Positions 128 through 4,731 of a DNA stretch of 35,739 bases are shown one piece after another; the first letter of the stretch is position 1, and the number at the start of each line of letters is the position of its first letter. Source of the DNA: Candidatus Nitrosopumilus sp. (GTDB lineage: Archaea > Thermoproteota > Nitrososphaeria > Nitrososphaerales > Nitrosopumilaceae); assembly GCA_018263505.1 (NCBI GenBank), contig JAANXA010000021.1:1-35739 (forward strand), written 5' to 3'. Under the pieces are notes generated by a model, which saw only the letters and a program-made list of their open reading frames with translations, had not been told where the DNA came from and did not search any database. Position numbers and translations under genes: made by a program.

Positions 128-168
128 GAAATTAATTATAATTTTTCATTAATGATTCTTTAGGTAAA

Positions 169-1398
169 TTAGATTGTAAACCATCCTGATTTCATATATG
201 ATAAAGCAATATTGAGACCAAATAGAACAAACGTGAATGCGTAAATTCCCACCATTGTCATATTGACTGCTTTTTCTGAAATTCTTTTATCAATAATAAT
301 ATGAATGAATTTTCCACCGTCTAGAATTGGTAATGGCAACATGTTGATTATTCCAATGAAAAATGAAATCATCCACAACCATAACAAGAAATATGAAAAT
401 TGACCTCCTATAGCTGTGTCTAACCCCCAATCGATGACGTTGTAAATTGGTACTGGTTGTGAATCGTTTCTCATTATTCCAATTAATCCTCTTTCAGCAT
501 TCTCTGGTGCTGGCATCACTTGTAATTCAAAATCTAATGGTTGACTTTCTCTTAACACTGAAACAGTAGCAGTTTCACCTGGATTCAAAGTGGGAAAATC
601 TGCTGGATTATGAATTGATATGCCGTTAATTGAAGTAATCAAATCATTTGCTTGAATACCTGCTTGTTGTGCTCCACCACCATCAATTACTGATAGTACC
701 ATAACTCCATCCATTTCAGCTTTTTCGTAAAATGTACTTTGTATTGGTTCTGGAACAACCATTGCAAACATTGGATTTGTCAACAAAATAGCTCCTAATG
801 CAAATGAAAACAAAACATTTGAAGTTGCACCTGCTCCAATAACTCTTAATTTAGAAATCTTTTTTGCTTTTTCAAACTCTTCTTCGTCTGGTTCAACAAA
901 ACCTGCAAACATTGCAATAAAAATGGCAAAGCCACCTGTTTTGATTTTTATTTTTTCAAGAGCTGCTACAATTCCATGTCCGCCCTCATGCATGACAAGT
1001 ACAATTGGGATTGAAAGTAAAAAGGCCCCAATTGCTGGGGCTGAAGTTAATGTAACGCCTGGAATTAATACGGTTAATTCATTAAATTCTGATTGTGCAA
1101 CAAAATAATTTGAAACATTATTTAACAAAAACCAAAATGCAAAACCCATCATTATGAATCCTGCAATGACACTAACATTTGCAAATACAGATACTGCTGA
1201 TCTTGTTCTACCTAGAATTTTTATTAAAAGTTCATTGACTCCTTTATTTTTATAAACTAGACTGTATGCCTTTATTTCAAAACCAAACCGCTCTAATTTT
1301 AGAGCTTTGGCTGATATGAAAATTCCTACCCATCCAATTAAGACATAGATAATGGGTAAATTCTCTTCTAATCTTTGAGTAATAAAACCAAGTTCCAA
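169..1398 (-). CDS. site-2 protease family membrane zinc metalloprotease with PDZ domain
   Basis: This 409-residue polytopic membrane protein should perform intramembrane proteolysis. HEGGH at residues 137-141 is the HExxH zinc site within a hydrophobic helix. The second motif, NMLPLPILDGG (352-362), supplies the third zinc ligand (Asp360). A PDZ-like domain lies between them at about 230-295. Several hydrophobic segments flank these (about 15-33, 70-95, 123-145, 185-215, 335-355, 378-400). Both catalytic motifs are intact. The start is TTG, with an A/T-rich TATA-like element about 22 nt upstream on this strand, which suits a leaderless message. Natural substrates are not evident. The gene faces the TnpB element across 285 noncoding bases. 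Confidence 0.9.
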   Translation of the reverse strand: MELGFITQRLEENLPIIYVLIGWVGIFISAKALKLERFGFEIKAYSLVYKNKGVNELLIKILGRTRSAVSVFANVSVIAGFIMMGFAFWFLLNNVSNYFVAQSEFNELTVLIPGVTLTSAPAIGAFLLSIPIVLVMHEGGHGIVAALEKIKIKTGGFAIFIAMFAGFVEPDEEEFEKAKKISKLRVIGAGATSNVLFSFALGAILLTNPMFAMVVPEPIQSTFYEKAEMDGVMVLSVIDGGGAQQAGIQANDLITSINGISIHNPADFPTLNPGETATVSVLRESQPLDFELQVMPAPENAERGLIGIMRNDSQPVPIYNVIDWGLDTAIGGQFSYFLLWLWMISFFIGIINMLPLPILDGGKFIHIIIDKRISEKAVNMTMVGIYAFTFVLFGLNIALSYMKSGWFTI

Positions 1399-1683
1399 AC
1401 TAATTGTTAATTTTTTAAGTCACGTACATTTATCGGTTTCTAGCGTTGATAGTCATATACGATATAGGAGATATCTTAACTCCTTTACTGTAGAACGCCA
1501 AAATAAATCAATTATATTATGGAATTCTTTTTGACGTCCAAACTTGATAAGATCTTGAAATTAATCTAGAATCACTATAAATCTAATTCCAGAATAGTCA
1601 ATATTGTATACAGATAAGCTTACAATTTTTGCCATGACAAATAATTTAACATTGTTTATCGTATATCAAAACCAGATAATCTC
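1399..1683. other. noncoding gap between the protease gene and tnpB; probable left part of the IS element
   Basis: These 285 bases contain no credible gene. The left edge carries the promoter of the minus-strand protease. The rest probably contains the left end of the IS200/IS605-type element. Small dyads are visible: GATAT-AGGAG-ATATC (1461-1475), AGGAG/CTCCT (1466-1470 and 1480-1484), and a 10-bp inverted repeat, ATATACGATA at 1455-1464 against TATCGTATAT at 1657-1666. None can be named as the transposon left end from this one copy. Confidence 0.4.
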
Positions 1684-2856
1684 ATGAAAACTAGAAACTA
1701 CAAATTTAGACTGTATCCAAATGACTCGCAAGAAAAAAAACTGCAAAACAATCTAGCAGTATGTAGGTGGGTATACAATAAATTTGTAGAATGTGCTCAA
1801 AAAGGATTCATATCGCGAAATGACTGTAACTACTATTTGGTTGAATTAAAACAGCAGGAACGATGGTTATATGGTTATTACTCCAAAATGCTTCAAGCAA
1901 TATCTGCACAAATAGACAGTGCTCAAAAAGTCATAATCGAGCTTAACAAAAAAGGATATCATACAGGAAATTTGAGATTTTGTAAGTATCATGACTATCG
2001 AACTTTTACATACAACCAAACTGGATTCAAGATGGAACAACATGGAAACACCGATCTATTACATCTCTCAAAAATTGGATGGATTGAAATAAGACAACAC
2101 CGTGATTTTCCACAAAATTCAAAAATAAAGCAAGTGATAGTTACAAAATCTAAGAGTGAAAGATGGTTTGTATGCGTTACAGTTGATATTTCAGAATCAC
2201 TGGTTGATATTCCAAAGATATCATTCTCAAGATCAGTCGGTATTGATGTTGGAGTAAAGTCATTTGCATATGATAGTAACGGCAATCAGACACCCAACCC
2301 CAAGAACTTTCAAAAAATGTTAAAACCACTTGCAAGAGTGCAGAGAAAGATTTCAAGAAGAAAGAAGGGATCAAACAACAGACTCAAAGCAATTCTCAAA
2401 ATGCAAAAGATTCATGAAAAGATAGCAAATAAAAGAAAAGACTTTCAGCACAAACTGTCTACACAGTATGCAAAAAATAATGATGTTGTATTTGTTGAAA
2501 AACTACAAAAACTAAACATGGTAAAAAACCATAGATTGTCTAGAAGCATAATGGATGCAAGTTGGGGTATATTCTTACAAAAACTAGAATACAAATGTAA
2601 AATGGTAATTGAAGTCCCAGCCAGAAACACTACAATAGATTGTTCACGTTGTGGCAACAAAGTACCAAAAAGTTTAGCTGTTAGAATTCACAGATGCAAT
2701 TTTTGTAATTTGGTACTAGATCGTGATTATAATGCATCAATTAATATCCTCAACAAGGGATTGAACAAACTACCGCAGGAACTGCGGGAAGTAACGCTTG
2801 TGGAGATGCCAAAGGTATCAAAGAAGCAAGAAGAGGCCACTCAATTTGTTGGGTGA
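1684..2856 (+). CDS. tnpB: TnpB, RNA-guided RuvC-type nuclease of an IS200/IS605-family element
   Basis: The 390-residue protein has the full TnpB layout. The N-terminal part begins with the family signature (YKFRLYPN, then CRWVYNKF). The RuvC-like core follows, with Asp188 (GIDVGVKSF), Glu272 (VFVEKL) and the third acidic site at DRDYNAS (346-352). Just before it is a zinc ribbon, C320-x2-C323 and C338-x2-C341. All catalytic positions are present and there is no frameshift, so it should be active. In studied relatives TnpB cuts DNA using an RNA made from the 3' end of its own gene plus the flanking sequence. Here the gene's last codons run into the right-end hairpin, as that model expects. 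The tail region (GLNKLPQELREV) matches the usual archaeal OrfB ending. Confidence 0.92.
   Translation: MKTRNYKFRLYPNDSQEKKLQNNLAVCRWVYNKFVECAQKGFISRNDCNYYLVELKQQERWLYGYYSKMLQAISAQIDSAQKVIIELNKKGYHTGNLRFCKYHDYRTFTYNQTGFKMEQHGNTDLLHLSKIGWIEIRQHRDFPQNSKIKQVIVTKSKSERWFVCVTVDISESLVDIPKISFSRSVGIDVGVKSFAYDSNGNQTPNPKNFQKMLKPLARVQRKISRRKKGSNNRLKAILKMQKIHEKIANKRKDFQHKLSTQYAKNNDVVFVEKLQKLNMVKNHRLSRSIMDASWGIFLQKLEYKCKMVIEVPARNTTIDCSRCGNKVPKSLAVRIHRCNFCNLVLDRDYNASINILNKGLNKLPQELREVTLVEMPKVSKKQEEATQFVG
2838..2855 (+). repeat. right-end hairpin of the IS element / 3' part of the predicted omegaRNA
   Basis: The sequence CACTCAA-TTTG-TTGGGTG forms a 7-bp stem with one G-T pair and a 4-base loop. It overlaps the last codons and stop of tnpB. 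A short subterminal hairpin at the right end is the structure recognised by Y1 transposases in IS200/IS605 elements, and in TnpB systems it lies at the scaffold end of the guide RNA. The following bases TTCACC (2860-2865) are a plausible cleavage boundary. Sequences just beyond it would supply the guide. Confidence 0.6.
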
Positions 2857-2872
2857 TAGTTCACCGGTTACT

Positions 2873-3184
2873 ATGAAATCTGTGATTATCATCTCAACAT
2901 ATCCTAATAAAAAATCTATTTCAAAAATCGCAAAAGAACTTGTACAATACAAAACAGTAGCCTGTGTCAATATCTCAAAAGTCTCATCAATTTATTCTTG
3001 GAATAAAAAAATTGAAAATACGTCTGAATACTTGGCAATTTTCAAAACTACTTTAAAAAACAAAAAATTACTAAAACAAAAAATTAAAGAAACTCATCCT
3101 TATGATGTGCCTGAAATTGCAGAGATTGATATTACATCAATTAACAAGTCTTATCTAAAATGGTTAATTGAATCTACAAATTAA
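2873..3184 (+). CDS. cutA: CutA1-family divalent-cation tolerance protein
   Basis: The 103-residue product matches CutA1, a small trimeric protein that binds divalent metals and is linked to copper tolerance in bacteria; its exact archaeal role is unsettled. Family marks are the CVNI segment, YSW (41-43), the LAIFKTT strand and the signature HPYDVPEI (75-82). I chose the ATG at 2873 because the protein then starts at the family's normal first strand (MKSVIIISTYP). The in-frame extension to 2798 reads through the tnpB 3' end and is not CutA-like. The gene lies directly behind the IS right end, and its own promoter may have been displaced. Its stop overlaps the convergent pelota stop by 4 bp. 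Confidence 0.92.
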   Translation: MKSVIIISTYPNKKSISKIAKELVQYKTVACVNISKVSSIYSWNKKIENTSEYLAIFKTTLKNKKLLKQKIKETHPYDVPEIAEIDITSINKSYLKWLIESTN

Positions 3185-4257: not shown

Positions 4258-4731
4258 TTATTCTTTTTTGGCTTTTGTTTCTTCAGATTTTTTTTTCAAA
4301 TAATTTTCAACCCAATCTAAAGTCAATACACCTGATTCTGCAAGATTTGTTAGAGAATTTGCAGAAGCTTCTCCAGTAACTTTTCCATTATTTCTTTTTA
4401 ATTGACGCCACTTAAGAGATGTATTACCACTTTTTGAATTATAAATAACTCCAAGAATGTCTCTTGCATTTACAAATGTCATATCTCTTAATTTTTTTAA
4501 AGTCACTTTATCTGCAGCCTCTACATAAATTGCTCCAAGACTATCTTCTCTTTCAGCAAATACTTCAGCATCTTCTAAATAACTTCTAGGAGCAAATGAT
4601 CTACATGTACTAGAAATAATGAACCTCCTAAAACTTTCAACTGAAGCAGGTGTATCAATTGTAACCATTTTGACTAATTCAAATATTTGCCATTTATCAA
4701 GCTTCTTGAAAGATTCAATAGGAATCCTCAA
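4258..4731 (-). CDS. conserved hypothetical protein, 157 residues
   Basis: I do not recognise this family. The product is soluble, with no signal peptide or membrane segment, mostly helical in appearance, and ends in a highly charged tail (KKKSEETKAKKE). A central stretch (about 60-105) alternates acidic and hydrophobic residues. The start is uncertain. TTG at 4731 is used, but the frame stays open without an ATG to about 4815, across the sRNA predicted on the other strand. The first internal ATG would remove 21 residues. It precedes pelota by 36 bp and may share its transcript. Confidence 0.7.
   Translation of the reverse strand: MRIPIESFKKLDKWQIFELVKMVTIDTPASVESFRRFIISSTCRSFAPRSYLEDAEVFAEREDSLGAIYVEAADKVTLKKLRDMTFVNARDILGVIYNSKSGNTSLKWRQLKRNNGKVTGEASANSLTNLAESGVLTLDWVENYLKKKSEETKAKKE

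Follow-up and report, generated by a model that had tools for sequence, protein, structure and literature searches.

Archaeal IS1341-type elements carry tnpB without tnpA, and tnpB-only elements in archaea reportedly give rise to 3' sense-overlapping RNAs, as Gomes-Filho is said, in PMC12558985, to have described in 2015. RNA-guided TnpB nucleases of IS605-type elements are represented in archaea by SisTnpB1/TnpB7 of Sulfolobus islandicus, in which the guide starts right after UUCAC and the TAM is TTTAA (PMC11043419). In Deinococcus radiodurans, ISDra2 TnpB cleaves DNA 15-21 bp away from its TAM, TTGAT, and belongs to a complete tnpA-tnpB element with left end (LE) and right end (RE); homing has been proposed for it (PMC8612924). 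An IS200/605 gene drive has further been described in plasmids, where TnpB cuts element-free copies of its insertion site (PMC11870625).

The locus examined here lies in the window, the whole stretch of 35,739 nucleotides that was analysed, which is contig C14 of a Nitrosopumilus-group MAG (1.37 Mb, 68 contigs, 97% complete) from an ammonia-oxidising archaeon of marine type. We consider it likely that the locus holds a stranded, 5'-truncated, IS605-derived and IS1341-like tnpB with a homing-type nuclease, placed at the divergent promoter of cutA and S2P. The features concerned are as follows.

128-1400, minus strand: S2P (peptidase M50), allele from the G003/G018 lineage (informative sites; tree, 100/100)
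1411-1419, plus strand: conserved TTTTTTAAG box, likely the cutA TATA box, judged from its conservation in element-free loci
1429-1433, plus strand: TAM TTTAT at the left flank (immediately precedes the target in C16 and 62 relatives; independent insertion sites)
1434-2864, plus strand: full extent of the insertion, 1431 bp against the empty allele (alignment with C16, locus L069, and 62 other genomes; TTCAC terminus)
1434-1443, plus strand: CGGTTtCTA, which repeats the target's first ~10 nt with one mismatch (sequence; scan of all elements)
1594-1683, minus strand: remnant of the tnpA 5' end and divergent intergenic region (aligns locally to the tnpA-tnpB element of G047)
1684-2856, plus strand: tnpB, RNA-guided RuvC nuclease (Pfam and PDB matches, dN/dS)
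2773-2864, plus strand: predicted reRNA (omega RNA) scaffold formed by the tnpB 3' end and RE, ending ATAGTTCAC (22-sequence alignment)
2773-2787, 2797-2830, 2805-2819 and terminal hairpin 2838-2855, plus strand: scaffold stems (covariation)
2865-2884, plus strand: predicted guide CGGTTACTATGAAATCTGTG, spanning the cutA start codon, directly after TTCAC as in SisTnpB (PMC11043419)
2873-3184, plus strand: cutA (PF03091; Pfam E 4e-30)

The window element resembles SisTnpB1/TnpB7 in being an archaeal TnpB with a guide, here predicted, right after UUCAC and a 5-bp T-rich TAM, but the TAM deduced here is TTTAT, and activity was assayed there while our account is drawn from sequence. With ISDra2 TnpB it shares the domain layout, the catalytic residues, a predicted reRNA from the tnpB 3' end and RE, and a right-flank guide; unlike ISDra2, it is not a complete element. 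It is like the IS1341-type elements in having tnpB and RE without tnpA, and differs in a tnpA remnant, a lost left end, a target fragment retained at that edge and a visible empty allele. The logic of the plasmid drive, the cutting of empty sites, would be the same here, but at a chromosomal site, in an archaeal population and with no transposase.

Element ends, empty allele and predicted target

An element-free allele, TTTAT|CGGTTACTATGAAACC, forms the end of contig C16 in the same MAG, and a second, partial CutA match (95% over residues 1-44) is found at the very end of this contig. The empty allele on C16 reads ...GTCACGTACATTTATCGGTTACTATGAAACCTGTG, and the occupied allele in the window reads ...GTCACGTACATTTAT-CGGTTTCTAG...GATAGTTCAC-CGGTTACTATGAAATCTGTG. 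The CGGTT common to both alleles leaves a 5-bp ambiguity in the element ends, which is settled because all aligned family elements end in TTCAC, a terminus that lies behind a covarying RNA scaffold in 22 out of 22 aligned family members. The C16 comparison and the TTCAC terminus thus give 1434-2864 for the element and 1429-1433 for the TAM, with the predicted guide starting at 2865. The earlier note, made from the window sequence alone, had given the element as 1440-2900, a span that is corrected here; its right end just before cutA is upheld, since C16 and 62 other genomes put that end at 2864|2865. Its prediction of a guide over the cutA start, at about 2866-2885, is supported by the empty sites, TTCAC and SisTnpB, with the start moved one base earlier, to 2865. 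The note had named an empty site with a different right end as grounds for refutation; the comparison was made here, and the guide prediction survives it to within one base.

TTTAT stands 5' of the target at this site (site 1) in 63 out of 63 element-free loci (C16 and 62 other genomes), and is also the TAM at the independent sites 2 and 3 of relatives, for example at the equivalent of window 4697|4698. Insertion at the TTTAT-cutA target is absent from 62 of 62 other genomes, and a search with the RE-junction pattern finds the same RE-cutA junction in no other genome of the genus. Candidate occupied cutA sites in G032, G065 and G082 were set aside, since these matches have 2 mismatches and are surrounded by unrelated sequence that lacks the right end of a TnpB element.

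Occupied and element-free alleles therefore coexist within one MAG bin. Because the element-free version of the site sits in the same bin, the predicted target of TnpB is directly visible; the presence of both alleles also means that any drive has not reached fixation. To our knowledge, natural loci in which occupied and empty alleles, TAM, guide and recombination tract can all be read in one population are uncommon, and at the cutA locus chromosomal homing by an archaeal TnpB can be put to a direct test. As the source is a MAG in which two strains are apparently co-binned, and C14 starts with exactly 127 bp common to C16 (apparently a branch in the assembly graph where two strains part), one might suspect that cutA and an unrelated TnpB were brought together as an assembly chimera. 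The junctions fall exactly where the family predicts, however, with TTTAT on the left and TTCAC on the right, and the sequence right of the element has its own SNPs relative to C16; we find a chimera hardly credible.

The predicted guide corresponds to the start of cutA, and its first 15-16 nt are the most relevant part. Its first 12 bases are exact in 45 of the 63 element-free loci, and at least 14 of 16 are matched in 61 of 63. The sole perfect TTTATCGGTTACTATGAAA in the MAG (TAM-flanked, first 14 guide nt) is the C16 allele, which mismatches the guide at position 15. No TAM-flanked guide match was found on the element-bearing chromosome itself in a search of the MAG.

In the homing-type reading that we favor, the element would have inserted 3' of a TTTAT TAM and, lacking tnpA, would be incapable of transposing by itself. 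The 3' end of the tnpB mRNA would be processed into a reRNA guided to the cutA start, and since the guide is the start of cutA, TnpB would cut element-free TTTAT-cutA copies, on chromosomes or incoming DNA that carry TTTAT-CGGTTACTATGAAA without the element. The predicted cleavage substrate for TnpB with its reRNA is TTTAT-CGGTTACTATGAAATCT DNA, and the findings are consistent with the earlier note's suggestion that TnpB would cut copies of the cutA locus lacking the element. Repair from an element-bearing copy would then keep or spread the element at this single site, much as a homing endonuclease does. We infer this RNA production, cleavage and repair-driven maintenance, and likewise the read-through dependence of cutA.

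In element-free loci the conserved TTTTTTAAG box lies at ~-31 to -23 from the cutA ATG, and the TATA box of an archaeal leaderless transcript is expected at about -31 to -23. The insertion puts 1.4 kb between cutA and this box, and the element stretch at the corresponding position, CAATTTGTT, is a poor TATA box. tnpB ends 16 bp upstream of the cutA ATG (2873). The anatomy thus fits the earlier suggestion that the element replaced the cutA promoter, and expression of cutA by read-through from tnpB is plausible.

The short divergent promoter between S2P and cutA (1398-1440; AATTGTTAATTTTTTAA...CATTTATCGGTTACTATG) shows extreme conservation throughout the genus, and this intergenic stretch is perhaps a bidirectional promoter.

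TldR proteins are nuclease-dead TnpB proteins that regulate other genes. A predicted guide on the promoter and start region of a host gene could likewise suggest that TnpB-reRNA has been domesticated to bind the cutA start and control the gene. Such a role appears highly improbable, as the RuvC triad is intact rather than lost as in TldR, the element-bearing chromosome offers no TAM-flanked copy to bind, and the arrangement is not conserved at the cutA locus.

TnpB, its predicted reRNA and the lost left end

The 390-aa TnpB contains the OrfB_IS605, Cas12f1-like_TNB and HTH_OrfB_IS605 domains, all above the curated Pfam cut-offs and together spanning nearly its full length. Its closest solved natural relative is ISDra2 TnpB (PDB 8h1j/8bf8; E 4e-44; residues 4-360 aligned), with which the RuvC motifs GxDVG, VE and DRDxNA and the CxxC...CxxC ribbon align. 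This alignment bears out the earlier claim that the RuvC residues and zinc ribbon are intact: D188, E272 and D348 of the triad are all kept, and the ribbon CxxC motifs are present at C320 and C338. The absence of TnpA claimed alongside also holds, as a PF01797 search finds no Y1 transposase anywhere in the 97%-complete MAG. No second TnpB was found in the MAG, which leaves the window TnpB as the sole copy.

Rfam at gathering thresholds returns three tRNAs only in the window, and the predicted reRNA was therefore tested by alignment. Across 22 relatives, the four helices in the last ~130 nt keep 94.6% of pair cells, with 15 pairs changed on both sides. The covariation score is 0.447 compared with 0.166 in shuffles (reached by 0 of 500), and drops to about 0.1 or below for slid structures, though part of the excess over the slid versions is expected because both the window sequence and the alignment had been used to draw up the structure. 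The terminal hairpin at 2838-2855 overlaps the tnpB stop codon at 2854-2856, and its end lies 17 bp short of the cutA ATG; the earlier note had already read this overlap and spacing. The structured RNA predicted here ends at the RE boundary, as expected of TnpB nucleases.

Purifying selection acts on TnpB across its family: the dN/dS of tnpB is 0.09-0.16 against 11 relatives, values that reflect the history of the whole family and may not show selection on the stranded window copy. The figure is about 0.1 in tnpA-less relatives as well, which argues against an inert relic, that is, an ordinary IS605 insertion, now without tnpA and left end, that drifts neutrally with an inactive TnpB. Such a relic would account for the missing LE and tnpA and for an element seen in one allele and in 0 of 62 other genomes, and broken TnpBs are known in the genus (G011 site 2, G049 and G093). 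Given that the TnpB ORF, catalytic residues, scaffold stems and TTCAC|guide junction are also fully kept, we judge a relic to be quite unlikely.

The element as a whole had been described as intact, a description that applies to TnpB alone, since the element has lost its left end together with almost the whole of tnpA. G047 has a complete relative with a full, divergent tnpA. Where an autonomous IS605 has an intact Y1 TnpA, the window has only the ~90-bp remnant at 1594-1683, which aligns with the G047 element with a score of 79.5 (0 of 1000 shuffles as good). Where an autonomous IS605 has its LE directly 3' of the TAM, a remnant of the target is found instead, and the family LE terminus AATnTnATGG (seen at site 2, in G047 and others, with a hairpin in G047 and G093) is absent at 1434. 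In searches for the origin of the 160 bp at 1434-1593, tnpA gives no significant match, and the family genomes give weak pieces of 20-50 bp only. A degenerate cutA copy in this stretch was considered and rejected, its alignment being no better than shuffles; a site-2-type LE at ~1511 is suggestive by eye and likewise no better than shuffles.

The chance of finding at most one mismatch in 10 at one position, as in the target copy at 1434-1443, is ~3e-5, with several tens of positions looked at. The pattern recurs at site 3 (~5926, minus strand), where TAAAAGA[T/C]TC is found on both sides of the insertions in G011 and G020. IS605 transposition, as far as we know, makes no target duplication. 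Such a remnant would be expected if an end cut 15-21 bp from the TAM, the distance measured for ISDra2 (PMC8612924), were joined to an element copied only in part. The target leftovers hint at how tnpB might be mobile without a transposase. TnpB would cut an empty site ~10-20 nt beyond the TAM; copying would start at the right end and run through RE and tnpB of an element-bearing chromosome, and imprecise joining would follow on the left. The resulting copies would be truncated at the 5' side, precise at the right end and left with target remains at the left edge (sites 1 and 3). If this is true, the nuclease alone, and not a transposase, would drive spread between strains. That the tnpB-only elements here spread as chromosomal homing elements through such one-sided repair is a tentative proposal that we rate as unlikely.

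The T/C variant of the 10-nt left-edge copy at ~5926 agrees with the right side in each genome.

The S2P allele beside the element and recurrent sites in relatives

Informative sites place the S2P gene next to the element in a foreign tract. Within 128-1400, 167 of the 221 informative sites are foreign, 34 resident and 20 other, and the resident type is found at 17 of 17 sites left of 117 and 31 of 31 right of 1418, with breakpoints at 116-128 and 1400-1419. Identity of the window S2P with the relatives that were compared is 76-79.5%, the C16 allele from the same MAG being at 77.6%. C16 S2P is 87% identical to G019, as is the window's downstream region at 87.4%. In the tree, window S2P groups with G018 and G003 (100/100) and C16 S2P with G019 (100/100), while the window's downstream region groups with G088 and G019.

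The resident markers right of 1418 imply that the import stops 15-34 bp short of the element. This closeness, and the fact that both features differ together between the alleles, could suggest a single event in which a TnpB cut was repaired with foreign DNA and S2P was co-converted. However, positions 1419-1433, between tract and element, are of resident type, and the element therefore did not arrive on the same unbroken tract, which weakens co-import of S2P and TnpB in that form. Moreover, the element is absent at the cutA site from all donor-lineage genomes, and a heterologous insertion of 1.4 kb can by itself halt an ordinary recombination tract there. A single origin for both is in our estimation rather doubtful. 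Cutting of incoming empty alleles by TnpB would equally halt the tract at the element.

The two S2P alleles in the MAG (window 128-1400; L069 3446-4700) differ by 22% between near-identical flanks, a clean interspecies gene replacement within one population.

We further note that related TnpBs are found at the same positions in different species, at the equivalents of 4697|4698 and ~5926. The former holds a TnpB in G094 and G011, which are sisters in the tree, and in G065 on a different branch, with a remnant in G093; the latter holds a TnpB in G011 and G020. This recurrence fits site-bound persistence with horizontal exchange, and vertical inheritance with loss is possible. No close TnpB relatives were found in viral contigs, and the TnpBs in phage and plasmid records are all below 60% identity.

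The TTTAT site at 4697|4698 (L078, L083, L081/L082, L079) has been hit in four genomes by at least two TnpB branches. The insertions at ~5926 (L083 6343-7655; L076 300-1680) sit between TrmB-like and DtxR-like genes. L034 and L060 (G020 and G049) apparently share a further site across two species, with guides ...AACTATCTTCTxCxTGCAAGG, and one of their TnpBs is internally deleted.
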